NCBI RefSeq assembly: GCF_944327115.1
Contig: NZ_CALVGS010000100.1
Coordinates: 1 to 38,848 of the forward strand
Direction: 5' to 3'
From: an uncultured Traorella sp.
GTDB lineage: Bacteria; Bacillota_I; Bacilli_A; Erysipelotrichales; Erysipelotrichaceae
DNA: 38,848 bases
Below, piece after piece: positions 22,125 through 26,758 of the stretch. A program made the translations under genes and the position numbers. Under the pieces are notes generated by a model. The model saw only the letters and a program-made list of their open reading frames with translations. It had not been told where the DNA came from and searched no databases. How positions within the stretch are numbered: the first letter of the stretch is position 1; every line of letters starts with the position of its first letter.

Positions 22125-23099
22125 ATGAAAAATCTAATCGAGTTTTTACGTAATCTCTCAGTGGTGCTTGTTATAGCTTTTGTGACGGTAGCTGCAGCTT
22201 CGCTGATACCTGTTGAAAAGGCAAAAGGCAGCGATACCTTTTTATATGCCCTAAGTGCAGATCTTTCCCATATCCATAGCCAATATGCCTTGTTAGAGGA
22301 GATGGAAAGCGGAAAGATATTAGCCTCAAAAAATATGCAGGATGCGATTTATCCGGCCTCTATGACAAAGATGATGACTGCCATCGTCATCATTGAACAT
22401 GTAGAAGATCTTAATGAAAAAATCATCATACCTGAAGATATCTATCCATATTTATATGAACAGGATGCTTCGGTTGCCGGTTTTCAGGCTTATGATGAAG
22501 TGCCGATCATCGATCTTCTCTATGGGATCCTTCTTCCTTCAGGAGCCGAATGTTCGATCACCTTGGCTAATTATATAGCCGGAAGTGAAGAAGCTTTTGC
22601 ACAGCTGATGAATGAAAAAGCACAGGAATTGAATATGAATCATACGCATTTTGTAAATTCAACAGGACTTCATGATGATGCACAGATGACAACCCTGGAA
22701 GATTTAGCTTATCTTGTGCGATATGCCTTAAAAAATGAAACATTCAAACAAATATTTACTTCCTCTGAATATCTTTCGCAGCCAACGCAAAGTCATCCTC
22801 AGGGACTTTTCATGAGAAGCACCATAAATCGTATCATAATCGAAAAAGAGAATCGTGTAGATTTTTTAGGTGGCAAGACAGGTTATACCGGAGAAGCCGG
22901 ACAATGCATGGCCAGCTTTGCTGAGGTGGATGGTAATGAGTATCTGTTGATCACAGCCAAAGCGGATGGGGCTGCGGTATCCATGCCATATCATATGATA
23001 GATGCCGAAAGCATTTATGAGCAGATCGGTATTTATAAGGCTTATTATGAAGATATGCATGTTGATGAGAAACCTGTTTCTTCTTTACATGAAAAATAA
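22125..23099 (+). CDS. Serine-type D-Ala-D-Ala carboxypeptidase (DacF/DacA-like)
   Basis: A 324-residue S11-family enzyme that trims the terminal D-Ala from peptidoglycan stem peptides. An N-terminal hydrophobic segment (about 10-30) serves as signal peptide or anchor. The motifs are Ser79-Met-Thr-Lys82 (nucleophile and base) and GGKTGYTGEAG (KTG). The second motif, usually SGN, reads Ser139-Gly-Ala; some S11 members share this change. ATG 22125 is chosen because it begins the signal peptide and sits 7 bases after a -10. The longer in-frame start at 22074 lies inside the terminator hairpin and promoter. No C-terminal amphipathic anchor domain is evident, so it is shorter than DacA. Confidence 0.88.
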   Translation: MKNLIEFLRNLSVVLVIAFVTVAAASLIPVEKAKGSDTFLYALSADLSHIHSQYALLEEMESGKILASKNMQDAIYPASMTKMMTAIVIIEHVEDLNEKIIIPEDIYPYLYEQDASVAGFQAYDEVPIIDLLYGILLPSGAECSITLANYIAGSEEAFAQLMNEKAQELNMNHTHFVNSTGLHDDAQMTTLEDLAYLVRYALKNETFKQIFTSSEYLSQPTQSHPQGLFMRSTINRIIIEKENRVDFLGGKTGYTGEAGQCMASFAEVDGNEYLLITAKADGAAVSMPYHMIDAESIYEQIGIYKAYYEDMHVDEKPVSSLHEK

Positions 23100-23120
23100 C
23101 GACGCAATGTCGTTATTTTT
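23092..23120. terminator. Bidirectional terminator between convergent genes
   Basis: AAAAATAACGAC pairs perfectly over 12 bases with GTCGTTATTTTT around GCAAT. It has a T-run on both strands, serving the carboxypeptidase gene (+) and the MerR-membrane protein pair (-). Confidence 0.9.
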
Positions 23121-23121
23121 A

Positions 23122-23367
23122 TTATTTATTGAATAGCAGCATCCAAGCACAAACGATCAAAAGAGCTAACAGCAGTAATAAACATAGCTTAGCCGGAAGG
23201 TTTCCGAATTTATGTGCGATCTTTCCTATAAGATGCTGATCGCTCAATTGCTGATAATCTTTCTTCATAGCGTAATAAACAAAAGCAATGATTGCCAAAA
23301 CACCTAAAACTGCTCCAAAGATCTGTTTGCTGACAAACGTTGAAAAAAGACCTAAAATACCTTTCAT
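23122..23367 (-). CDS. Small two-helix membrane protein of unknown function
   Basis: An 81-residue protein not recognised as a member of a named family. Two hydrophobic helices (about 15-33 and 58-78) flank a polar basic segment (KKDYQQLSDQHLIGKIAHKF), predicting a hairpin with an internal or external loop. AAAGGAGGATTCA before the ATG is an excellent ribosome site, and the reading frame ends just before a strong terminator, so it is probably a real gene. It starts 21 bases after the MerR-type regulator ends, on the same strand, and is likely co-transcribed with it. A role in stress sensing or membrane protection would be a guess. Confidence 0.7.
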   Translation of the reverse strand: MKGILGLFSTFVSKQIFGAVLGVLAIIAFVYYAMKKDYQQLSDQHLIGKIAHKFGNLPAKLCLLLLLALLIVCAWMLLFNK

Positions 23368-23388
23368 TGAATCCTCCTTTATGTAACC

Positions 23389-23781
23389 TTATTTGCGAAT
23401 AAGATTGCTTACATAGGGACGTTTTCCCGAAAGAATTTCATCGTAGAAATTTTGTTTCCAATCGATGTAAGCCACGCTTTCTTCTAATTCCTGAATTGCG
23501 ATACGTAAGGCTTCCTGCTTTTTCGCAAGCATTTCTTTACGTTTTGGAATCGTAGGTTCACCTTCAAGGCAAAGCTGCAGATATTCTTTCATTTCCTGTA
23601 TGCTCATACCGCATTTTTTTAGACATACAAGATCTTTGATCCATTTGATATCCTGTTCATCAAAGATCCGGCGGTTATTTTCATCGCGTTTGACATTGGG
23701 AACAAGGCCGCAATTACAATAATATTTGAGTGCCTGATAGGTCATATTGGTTTTTTTACAAGTCTGCATCATCGTGTACAT
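23389..23781 (-). CDS. MerR-family regulator, AdhR/NmlR type
   Basis: A 130-residue transcription factor with an N-terminal winged helix (MYTMMQTCKKTNMTYQALKYY, then GLVPNVKRDENNRRIF) and a C-terminal dimerisation helix ending in the DWKQNFYDE-type segment of the carbonyl/nitrosative stress subgroup. Cys53 in DLVCLKKCGMSI matches the single conserved cysteine that senses aldehydes in AdhR and NmlR. Further cysteines are at 8, 22, 24, 57 and 71. ATG 23781 is chosen for its GGAGGT site seven bases upstream; an in-frame TTG further upstream is itself part of that site. It is divergent from the ferredoxin-alcohol dehydrogenase operon, which it probably controls. Confidence 0.88.
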   Translation of the reverse strand: MYTMMQTCKKTNMTYQALKYYCNCGLVPNVKRDENNRRIFDEQDIKWIKDLVCLKKCGMSIQEMKEYLQLCLEGEPTIPKRKEMLAKKQEALRIAIQELEESVAYIDWKQNFYDEILSGKRPYVSNLIRK

Positions 23782-23825
23782 GTTATCTACCTCCAAAAAA
23801 AATTAAATTTTTTTTCAAAAAACAC

Positions 23826-23890
23826 TTGACCGATAGTAACAACCGGTAATTATAATCGATTGTAGTTATCGATAGTACCTATCGGATTAT
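23826..23890 (+). promoter_or_regulatory. MerR-type promoter region with 19-bp spacers and a palindrome
   Basis: TTGACC (23826-23831) and TATAAT (23851-23856) are 19 bases apart, the over-long spacer typical of MerR-activated promoters; the spacer holds an ACCG/CGGT dyad. A second candidate uses TTGTAG (23860-23865) and GATTAT (23885-23890), again with a 19-base spacer. Its spacer contains the perfect inverted repeat CGATAG-TAC-CTATCG (23870-23884). CGATAGTA recurs at 23831-23838 and 23870-23877. The region separates the regulator from its proposed targets. Confidence 0.7.
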
Positions 23891-23936
23891 AGCACGAAGA
23901 TAACTGTCAGACAAGGAAAAAAGAAAGGAGATTGAC

Positions 23937-24707
23937 ATGTTATTTTATTTTACAGGTACGGGAAACAGTTTATATGTTGCGAAAAAGATCGAAGAAGCAC
24001 CTATCAGCATTCCACAGATCATGCGACAGGATTCACTCGAATTTAGTGATGAAAGCATTGGTATCGTAGCACCAATCTATGGACATGAAGTACCGCCGAT
24101 GGTGAAAGATTTTATGAAGTCAGCTGTCTTTCATACCGATTATTTCTATATGATCTTAACTTATGGTAATCGGCATGGAGGAGCGGCTGAGCTGGCAAAA
24201 CAGCTATGTGATGAATGTGGCATCAAAGTAGATTACATTCATATGGTATTGATGGTCGACAACTGGCTGCCAAGCTTTGATATGAGCGAACAAAAGAAGC
24301 TCGATAAAAAAGTAGATGAACAACTGGCAGTGCTCTTACATGATCTTAAGATTCACAAACGAGAAATTTCACCGGTAAATGATCAAGATCGTGCAGCCCA
24401 TCAGCAGTTTCTGGAAAATCAAAAGAAGGTACCTGAAGAAGTGTGGCAGCATTTTATTCAGATCAAGGACAACTGTATCGGCTGTGGTATCTGTGAAAAG
24501 GTATGTCCATCTTCATCCATTCATGTAATTGATGGAAAAGCGGTTTATCATTTTAATCATTGCCAGACTTGTCTGGCATGTGCGCATGCCTGTCCGCAAA
24601 AAGCAATCGGACTGTCCATTCCGGAGAAAAATCCGCAAGAGCGTTATCGTAATGAGCATATTTCGTTACAGGAAATCATTCAATCAAATTCACAAGTCAA
24701 TCGTTAA
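23937..24707 (+). CDS. EFR1-type flavodoxin-ferredoxin protein
   Basis: A 256-residue redox protein fusing a flavodoxin-like FMN domain (about 1-150) to two [4Fe-4S] clusters of bacterial ferredoxin type. The FMN loop is FTGTGNSLYVAKK (5-17). Cluster cysteines are 180, 183, 186, 190 and 209, 212, 215, 219. The EFR1 group is found beside many anaerobe oxidoreductases; its partner and reaction are not established. AAAGGAGATTG precedes the ATG. The next gene begins 12 bases downstream, an alcohol dehydrogenase, so the pair may channel electrons in an aldehyde or redox stress response controlled by the divergent MerR regulator. Confidence 0.85.
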   Translation: MLFYFTGTGNSLYVAKKIEEAPISIPQIMRQDSLEFSDESIGIVAPIYGHEVPPMVKDFMKSAVFHTDYFYMILTYGNRHGGAAELAKQLCDECGIKVDYIHMVLMVDNWLPSFDMSEQKKLDKKVDEQLAVLLHDLKIHKREISPVNDQDRAAHQQFLENQKKVPEEVWQHFIQIKDNCIGCGICEKVCPSSSIHVIDGKAVYHFNHCQTCLACAHACPQKAIGLSIPEKNPQERYRNEHISLQEIIQSNSQVNR

Positions 24708-24719
24708 GGAGGAATCACG

Positions 24720-25865
24720 ATGAATACATTTACATTTACTTATCCAACAAAGGTTTATTTTGGTGAGAAGGTTGCCGCTGAGGCTTTAAAAGGAGAATTA
24801 TCAAAGGTCGGAAAGACAGTCATGCTGGCATATGGCGGCGGGTCGATCATGAAAAATGGCATTTATGATGAAATCAAAATACTTTTGACAGACGCAAATA
24901 AAGAGGTCGTGGAATTATCAGGCATCATGCCGAATCCGACATATACCAAAGTTCAGGAAGGAGCACGGCTGGTTCGTGAACATCAGGTTGATTTTATTTT
25001 AGCGGTAGGCGGCGGATCTGTCATTGACTGTTGTAAAGTGGTATCGGCTCAGGCAAAAGTGGAGGAAGATATCTGGGAAATGGAATATGTATCCGGTAAA
25101 TTTCCAACACAGGGCATTCCTATGGGCGCTGTGGTAACAGCTTCCGGTACGGGTGCTGAAATGAACAGCGGTGCTGTTATTACTTATGAAGAGAAGATGT
25201 GGAAAGGACCGATCGTTGGTACTGCTGTTTCATTTGCGATCCTTGATCCGGCATATACGGCTTCAGTTCCATCCATGCAGGTGCTTTCAGGAGCCTTTGA
25301 TACATTGAGCCATGCCATGGAAACCTATTTAGGAAATTCAGATGCAGACAATGTATCCGATGATGTAGCCTTGGCTATCATGCGCAATACGGTTATCAAT
25401 ATGCGCCGCCTTTTGGTGGATATCAATGATATGCAGGCTCGTGGTAATCTGATGTGGGATTCTGCCATGGCAGAAAACGGTATTCTAAAAGTAGGACGTC
25501 TTACAGATTTTCAAGCGCATCAGATCGAACATCAGCTCGGTGCCTATACAGATTGTAACCATGGACAAGGCTTAGCTGTCATTCATCCGGTTTACTATCG
25601 CCATATCTTAAAAGATGCGCAAGAGAAATTTACCCGTTTTGCGAGAGAGGTATTTGGAAAAGAAAGTGCTGAAGAAGGACTGGATGCCTTAAGTGATTTC
25701 ATCAAAGAATGTCATTTGCCAACAAAGCTTGGTGAATTAAGATCCAAAGTAGAAATTACACCGGAAATTCTTCGCAAGGTAGCAGACAGCTGTAATATCA
25801 TCAAATGCAATCCGCGTGAACTGAGTCGTGATGAAGTTTATGGGATCCTATTGGAGTGCATGTAG
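24720..25865 (+). CDS. Iron-type alcohol dehydrogenase, YqhD-like aldehyde reductase
   Basis: A 381-residue group III alcohol dehydrogenase. The nucleotide motif GGGSVID (about 97-103) and the metal ligands Asp194, His198, His267 and His281 fall at the same positions as the zinc ligands of E. coli YqhD, an NADPH-dependent reductase of short aldehydes. The length and the N-terminal TFTYPTKVYFGE also fit the YqhD/BdhA subgroup. It sits directly behind the ferredoxin gene and AGGAGG precedes its ATG. In Bacillus the AdhR regulator controls an alcohol dehydrogenase in response to aldehydes, so the same logic is likely. Cofactor (NADH or NADPH) cannot be read with certainty. Confidence 0.93.
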   Translation: MNTFTFTYPTKVYFGEKVAAEALKGELSKVGKTVMLAYGGGSIMKNGIYDEIKILLTDANKEVVELSGIMPNPTYTKVQEGARLVREHQVDFILAVGGGSVIDCCKVVSAQAKVEEDIWEMEYVSGKFPTQGIPMGAVVTASGTGAEMNSGAVITYEEKMWKGPIVGTAVSFAILDPAYTASVPSMQVLSGAFDTLSHAMETYLGNSDADNVSDDVALAIMRNTVINMRRLLVDINDMQARGNLMWDSAMAENGILKVGRLTDFQAHQIEHQLGAYTDCNHGQGLAVIHPVYYRHILKDAQEKFTRFAREVFGKESAEEGLDALSDFIKECHLPTKLGELRSKVEITPEILRKVADSCNIIKCNPRELSRDEVYGILLECM

Positions 25866-25926
25866 AAAATATTATAAAAAGTTTTACTTAGATTAGAAAT
25901 GAGTGGGCTGATAGAAAGGAGCTGTC

Positions 25927-26601
25927 ATGAAAAAACTTAATGGATTATTACTTACTGCTTTTATGTTATTTGCACTTGCTGCATGTGGCAGCCAGGGCAA
26001 TCAAGATACACCGGTCAATGATGAACCGGCTGTGCAACAGCCTGCAGCTTCAGTGGGAGATAGCAATGTATTGATCGTTTATTTTTCAGTAATGGAAGAT
26101 GATGGTGTTGATACTGTTGGCGGTGCCAGCCGTGTTGCGGTTAATGGTGAATTAATGGGAAATAATGAATATATTGCGGCATTGATCCAACAGGAAACAG
26201 GTGGTGATCTCTTCCGTATTGAAACGCAGCAGGAATATCCGACAACGCATAAACCTTTATTAGAATTTGCACATCAAGAAGGAAATGAAAATGCCCGTCC
26301 GGCATTAGCCACTGAACTTGCTGATCTTGAGAATTATGATACGATTTTCTTAGGATATCCGATCTGGAATGCAGATTTACCAATGTCTGTATATACATTT
26401 TTAGAAAGCTATGATTTTAGTGGTAAGACAATCGTGCCATTTACGGTACACGGCGGCAGCGGGTTTGCAGGAACGATCCAGGTGATCGCCAGCCTTGAAC
26501 CAAATGCAACGGTTGTGGAAGACGGACTCTCCATTTCACGAAATAATGTCAGTGATGTCCAAAGTGATGTAACTGCTTGGGTGGAGGGGTTGAATCGCTG
26601 A
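25927..26601 (+). CDS. Flavodoxin-fold lipoprotein
   Basis: A 224-residue exported lipoprotein. The signal peptide ends in the lipobox LAAC (Cys20), and a short disordered linker (about 21-45) leads to a flavodoxin-like domain with the first strand VLIVYFSV. The central YDTIFLGYPIWNADLP loop is typical of FMN-binding flavodoxins of the Flavodoxin_4 group. It would sit on the outer face of the membrane. GAAAGGAGCTG precedes the ATG, 61 bases after the dehydrogenase gene with no terminator between, so it probably belongs to the same operon. An extracellular flavin carrier near an intracellular ferredoxin and dehydrogenase suggests an electron-export or quinone-handling role, not proven. Confidence 0.85.
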   Translation: MKKLNGLLLTAFMLFALAACGSQGNQDTPVNDEPAVQQPAASVGDSNVLIVYFSVMEDDGVDTVGGASRVAVNGELMGNNEYIAALIQQETGGDLFRIETQQEYPTTHKPLLEFAHQEGNENARPALATELADLENYDTIFLGYPIWNADLPMSVYTFLESYDFSGKTIVPFTVHGGSGFAGTIQVIASLEPNATVVEDGLSISRNNVSDVQSDVTAWVEGLNR

Positions 26602-26646: not shown

Positions 26647-26678
26647 CAAAAAAAGTCCTGAAAACAGGACTTATTTTA
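26647..26678 (-). terminator. Terminator of the tRNA-Thr gene
   Basis: On the - strand AAGTCCTG pairs perfectly with CAGGACTT around TTTT, then seven T follow. It may also stop + strand transcripts, where the following tract is ATTTTATT. Confidence 0.85.
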
Positions 26679-26682
26679 TTAC

Positions 26683-26758
26683 TGGTGCCGGCTATGAGAT
26701 TCGAACTCACAACCTCCGCCTTACCATGGCGTTGCTCTACCGTTGGAGCTAAGTCGGC
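26683..26758 (-). tRNA. tRNA-Thr(GGU), CCA encoded
   Basis: A 76-base tRNA with all arms. The acceptor GCCGACT pairs with AGCCGGC, and the D arm is GCTC/GAGC. The anticodon loop ATGGTAA gives anticodon GGU (threonine, codons ACC and ACU). The T arm is GTGAG with TTCGAAT, and CCA is encoded. Three departures from the usual cloverleaf are seen: an A5-C68 mismatch in the acceptor, an A27-G43 mismatch in the anticodon stem, and C at position 14 where A is nearly invariant. The promoter (-10 on the - strand at 26767-26772) and the terminator are both in place, so it is expressed as a single-gene unit. Confidence 0.92.

Follow-up and report, generated by a model that had tools for sequence, protein, structure and literature searches.

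We analysed a stretch of 38,848 nucleotides (hereafter, the window) from an uncultured Traorella sp. and found in it a regulator of the MerR family, related to NmlR and AdhR, that is encoded beside a YqhD-type reductase, an EFR1 family protein and a lipoprotein flavodoxin of the Flavodoxin_4 family. The association of this kind of MerR protein with carbonyl reductases and exported Flavodoxin_4 proteins recurs in related bacteria. A preliminary description of the DNA had placed a MerR protein with the AdhR/NmlR cysteine, a YqhD-like reductase and an exported flavodoxin in one aldehyde/redox stress module. Comparison of 14 MerR loci (the window and 13 relatives, from two families) supports control of a carbonyl reductase and such a flavodoxin by a thiol-type MerR protein: an operator is found in 12, with a reductase in 7 and Flavodoxin_4 in 5. 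Each part of the locus is known, and the new element appears to be the association itself, given that the set of five genes is not conserved. As an explanation of the whole, we think it modestly probable that an electrophile-sensing MerR protein controls both aldehyde reduction in the cytosol and a flavin carrier outside it.

All five open reading frames of the preliminary description are present at the positions it gave. Two minus-strand genes, for an 81-amino-acid protein and the MerR protein, are divergent from three plus-strand genes, for EFR1, a YqhD-type iron-containing alcohol dehydrogenase and the flavodoxin. The unit is bounded by terminators at 23092-23120 and 26653-26672 and by a tRNA-Thr gene at 26683-26758; neither these nor the operator figured in the preliminary description. 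Its features are as follows.

23122-23367, minus strand: 81-amino-acid protein, interpreted as having two membrane helices, encoded downstream of the MerR gene.
23389-23781, minus strand: MerR-family regulator, NmlR/AdhR-like (PF13411 and NF041849 profiles, orthologue alignment).
23826-23856, plus strand: MerR-type promoter, TTGACC-19 bp-TATAAT, with the operator CGATAGTAACAACCG at 23831-23845.
23869-23890, no strand assigned: second dyad CGATAGTACCTATCG, a possible MerR autoregulatory promoter.
23937-24707, plus strand: EFR1 family fusion of a flavodoxin-like domain and a 2[4Fe-4S] ferredoxin (NF038196).
24720-25865, plus strand: YqhD-type iron-containing alcohol dehydrogenase/aldehyde reductase (PF00465, PF25137).
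25927-26601, plus strand: lipoprotein flavodoxin, Flavodoxin_4 of the PRK06934 type (PF12682, NF005389).
26110-26130, plus strand: heptapeptide DTVGGAS resembling the ApbE motif, residues 62-68 of the flavodoxin (alignment with exported relatives).
26653-26672, plus strand: stem-loop resembling an intrinsic terminator, at the end of the operon (from sequence).

Every gene product except the 81-amino-acid protein can be assigned to a known family. These identities, like the catalytic and ligand residues and the lipobox given below, are read directly from the sequence.

In the 12 loci, an operator near CGGTAGTNACTACCG lies within the spacer of a TTGACC-19 bp-TATAAT promoter, or one close to it. 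Eleven of these sites come from a scan of upstream regions and the twelfth, at L086, from a pattern search that placed it just 5′ of YqhD. The spacer measures 19 bp in all operator-bearing loci, and a spacer of this length with the operator inside it is typical of promoters activated by MerR proteins. In the 1163 upstream regions scanned at these loci, those of non-MerR genes score 19 or less, while most true sites score 22-24 and the weakest (L183, L240, L091 and L086) 19-20. The exact operator occurs in five of 395 genomes of the class, each time beside this MerR gene, and the reversed control gave none; matches elsewhere with two mismatches are at the level of the control. A genome-wide regulon was considered and rejected, because the window genome has one site at up to two mismatches. 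The second dyad, read on the minus strand, is situated between a poor −35 element and TACAAT, also with a 19-bp spacer (scan score 17, three mismatches). Across the operator loci, ATTGTA, which is TACAAT on the other strand, is conserved beyond the −10 element, and TACAAT could be the −10 element of the MerR gene itself.

A carbonyl reductase, either an aldo-keto reductase or YqhD, is first from the operator in 7 of the 12 loci; in the window it is second, after EFR1. The first gene encodes an aldo-keto reductase at L207, L088, L210 and L090, YqhD at L085 and L086 (with no flavodoxin as the following gene in either) and Flavodoxin_4 at L183 and L240. Flavodoxin_4 adjoins the operator in 5 of the 12 (the window, L207, L210, L183 and L240), and four of these five proteins have a lipobox or a membrane-spanning N-terminus. 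At L207 and L210 a lipoprotein Flavodoxin_4 comes after the reductase, the L240 flavodoxin has a membrane-spanning N-terminus and the L183 copy is a short open reading frame call with no visible signal. One locus, L087, has a histidine phosphatase gene in two tandem copies with an iron-containing alcohol dehydrogenase gene downstream; a carbonyl role for the phosphatase is not obvious.

YqhD relatives (E ≤ 1e-100) were found in 26 genomes among 316 from the order. Of 29 such loci, the window included, 12 have Flavodoxin_4 within 5 kb, 11 an aldo-keto reductase, 8 FMN_red, 6 LysR, 5 RibD_C, 4 EFR1, 4 MerR and 3 DUF4405. The 12 loci with Flavodoxin_4 compare with about 0.4 expected by position, by our own estimate with about three copies per genome. 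Like the operator with its 19-bp spacer and conservation, the linkages of MerR with reductase and of YqhD with Flavodoxin_4 are observations made on the DNA sequences themselves. In two genomes (L092, G054:C16; L182/L240, G075:C172), many Flavodoxin_4 paralogues surround one YqhD and a DUF4405 cytochrome; they include exported proteins with an SSAS motif, exported proteins without the motif and short forms.

The window reductase matches PF00465 (132 bits) and PF25137 (97 bits), and its metal ligands D194, H198, H267 and H281 have exactly the numbering of E. coli YqhD, as the preliminary description had stated. With 217.5 bits against the PRK15138 equivalog, under the cut-off of 645, it is a relative of this NADPH aldehyde reductase and not an orthologue by that model. 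The flavodoxin-ferredoxin fusion of the preliminary description is EFR1 (NF038196, 189 bits against a cut-off of 75). It has a flavodoxin-like N-terminus and two CxxCxxCxxxCP motifs, at residues 180 and 209 (CIGCGICEKVCP and CQTCLACAHACP), and no signal peptide was seen in its sequence. EFR1 relatives are found among aldo-keto reductase and YqhD genes at L085, L094 and L098. At L084 (G054:C47, 12834-13105), an EFR1 relative is broken by stop codons, and the same contig bears a MerR orthologue without a recognisable 19-bp-spacer operator.

The flavodoxin matches PF12682 (77.8 bits against 24) and NF005389, the PRK06934 model (227 bits against 172). It was described as a lipoprotein, and its hydrophobic N-terminus (MKKLNGLLLTAFMLFALAAC) and LAAC lipobox at Cys20 agree with this. 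An AlphaFold2 model has a flavodoxin fold (predicted local distance difference test, pLDDT, 79; predicted template modelling score, pTM, 0.75), and the closest Protein Data Bank structures are 4ici, 3klb and 4j8p. Between strand 48-52 and helix 79-91 of the model, an insertion forms a low-confidence loop, with residues 63-66 below 50. According to the alignment, this insertion between strand 1 and helix 1 is absent from the three structures.

Exported relatives have D-x-S-S-S-A-S within the insertion, aligned to DTVGGAS in the window. The consensus for flavinylation by ApbE is D-x-x-[ST]-G-A-[ST] (PMC12052999). The window sequence keeps the Asp, Gly5, Ala6 and the presumptive acceptor Ser68, has Gly instead of Ser/Thr at position 4, and is thus one residue off the consensus. 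Among Flavodoxin_4 sequences that could be parsed (31 of 98 could not), the motif occurs in 18 exported proteins out of 52 and in none of the 15 that are cytosolic (Fisher p=0.007). Because it is found in 18 of the 52, export is not always coupled to the motif. In the lipoprotein flavodoxins of L208, L211, L212, L214 and L216, P-S (e.g., SSPS) replaces A-S at the end of the motif region, and flavinylation is possibly altered or lost in these proteins. The flavodoxins of L207, L210, L240 and L183 have a different insertion, also conserved (around EEENSAIVVDGEVLGNTQ), that lacks the ApbE motif. The window genome has five FMN_bind matches and one DUF4405 cytochrome, whose gene shares a contig with that of a second lipoprotein flavodoxin. 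Four genomes of the same family (G028, G024, G003 and G034) have about 20-31 FMN_bind matches each, many in proteins of about 600 amino acids, which suggests expansions of extracytosolic flavin reductases.

Extracytosolic Flavodoxin_4 proteins with an insertion between strand 1 and helix 1 were reported by Huang et al. 2024 (PMC11334425), who showed ApbE-dependent flavinylation for two of them and noted clusters with DUF4405 cytochromes. We had ourselves considered that exported flavodoxins bearing an ApbE motif might be new, and rejected this on account of that paper. The window protein shares with this published class its fold, export signal, insertion and a motif-like heptapeptide ending in Ser, in a genome that has ApbE and DUF4405; it differs in that its gene is away from apbE, in the DTVGGAS motif and in its place in an apparently MerR-controlled reductase operon. 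The preliminary interpretation is supported in part: MerR, reductase and Flavodoxin_4 are recurrently linked, but the order of the five genes is not conserved and the flavodoxin class was already known and experimentally tested (PMC11334425).

In the explanation we favour, the NmlR/AdhR-related MerR protein would sense a thiol-reactive electrophile, probably an aldehyde or a quinone, through Cys53, perhaps together with Cys57. It would then activate the single 19-bp-spacer promoter to give one EFR1-YqhD-flavodoxin transcript. The YqhD-type enzyme would clear cytosolic carbonyls with NAD(P)H, and EFR1 would serve as a cytosolic electron carrier. The lipid-anchored flavodoxin, with its flavin mononucleotide (FMN) probably attached by ApbE at Ser68, would receive electrons on the membrane's outer side and reduce an external electrophile or acceptor. 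Its electron donor might be a DUF4405 cytochrome encoded elsewhere. We infer the inducer and its sensing, activation, covalent FMN, the electron donor, the substrate and the electron flow. A more specific version seems rather unlikely: that one switch couples cytosolic aldehyde reduction with a covalently flavinylated exported flavodoxin, so that carbonyls or quinones are detoxified on both sides of the membrane, with the electrons used outside drawn through a DUF4405-type cytochrome.

Several points count against the favoured explanation. The window is the only locus with EFR1, YqhD and an exported flavodoxin directly under one MerR promoter, and 3 of the 12 operators (L087, L089 and L091) drive a histidine phosphatase and not a carbonyl gene. 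Because the sequences are related by descent, the locus counts do not represent independent events. The MerR protein scores 69.6 bits against the NmlR profile NF041849, far under the cut-off of 175, and its inducer may therefore differ. The flavodoxin motif lacks Ser/Thr at position 4, no apbE gene is nearby and the genome's sole ApbE is encoded on a different contig (C44). Finally, a sister species (G004) retains the MerR gene without the cassette of three plus-strand genes or the operator.

One alternative is a conventional electrophile response that depends on the YqhD-type reductase alone, with EFR1 and the exported flavodoxin as variable accessories that ride along and bind FMN non-covalently or not at all. 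Consistent with this, the core across loci is MerR, operator and reductase, with EFR1 and the flavodoxin varying; the window motif is degenerate, and YqhD at L085 and L086 is not followed by a flavodoxin. However, Flavodoxin_4 is near YqhD in 12 of the 29 loci and is directly driven by the operator at L183 and L240, which is too frequent for passengers. We consider this alternative unlikely, although it has a real chance of being right.

The cysteines of the MerR protein bear on the nature of the signal. The protein matches PF13411 (MerR_1, 46.8 bits), and its best-matching profile is NmlR, with weak similarity to the CueR and ZntR profiles. Residues 7-116 align to positions 6-115 of NF041849. 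The AdhR/NmlR cysteine recognised in the preliminary description is Cys53, which falls on position 52; the corresponding site, Cys52 in AdhR and Cys54 in NmlR, is needed for the response to formaldehyde. Cys22, Cys53, Cys57 and Cys71 are all invariant in the 14 orthologues (49.6-100% identity). This set, in contrast to the one sensing cysteine known from NmlR/AdhR, could point to disulphide, metal or oxidative stress instead of carbonyls: a Cys53/Cys57 dithiol would be the sensor, with diamide, quinones or a soft metal as the signal, and the redox proteins would rebalance electrons. The CueR/ZntR similarity is in line with such a signal. Given that most first target genes encode aldo-keto reductases or YqhD, i.e., carbonyl reductases, and that NmlR remains the best profile, we find it quite unlikely.

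The preliminary description proposed checking other genomes for the order of the five genes; it occurs in the window species only. We rejected co-conservation of the five because the 81-amino-acid gene is genus-restricted and the three-gene cassette is absent in G004. Among the loci examined, the 81-amino-acid gene is found elsewhere only in G004 (L083, 79%), its product has no Pfam or NCBIfam match, and it is probably outside the module. The flanks in G004 have the same order: CpsA-like, DacA, the 81-amino-acid protein (79%), MerR (90%), tRNA, YbaK, PCC and thioredoxin. DNA similarity ends at window position 23822 and restarts at 26649. In G004 the operator and target operon have disappeared, yet the MerR protein (L083, 8017-8406) is still 90% identical. 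A search for related loci in genome contigs gave no more than three distant relatives.

The same flanks and MerR without a cassette could mean that the three plus-strand genes were recently gained beside an orphan MerR gene, with no functional tie to it, but this is very improbable, since the cassette starts with an operator common to MerR orthologues in other genera and families. For that reason, loss in G004 is simpler than gain. Recent foreign origin was also rejected because the G+C content of the three genes (0.40-0.43) matches that of the flanks (0.41).

The closest known systems are the NmlR/AdhR regulons, adhC-estD in Neisseria and Haemophilus and adhA-yraC-yraA in Bacillus subtilis. 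They share with the window a cysteine at the same profile position, a MerR gene beside a carbonyl-detoxifying dehydrogenase and a 19-bp-spacer promoter. By contrast, their enzymes are the zinc-dependent AdhC and AdhA, whereas the window targets are a YqhD-type iron-containing dehydrogenase, an exported flavodoxin and EFR1, and those at orthologue loci can be aldo-keto reductases. The window MerR also differs in its extra invariant Cys22, Cys57 and Cys71 and in its profile score. In E. coli, yqhD adjoins the gene for the AraC-type regulator YqhC, while the regulator here is a MerR protein. In the literature searched, we did not find the association of an NmlR/AdhR-like switch with YqhD or an aldo-keto reductase and exported Flavodoxin_4. 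Searches on YqhD in combination with flavodoxin, MerR and aldo-keto reductase gave nothing, one on flavodoxin and lipoprotein in Erysipelotrichaceae gave a single unrelated paper, and a search by the name EFR1 gave no paper.

When flavinylated extracytosolic flavodoxins were described in 2024, their physiological role was not settled. A MerR operator over a carbonyl reductase and an exported flavodoxin provides a testable condition, electrophile stress, under which such a flavodoxin would be produced. Moreover, the operator within the TTGACC-19-TATAAT promoter predicts a regulon in related bacteria of the order.

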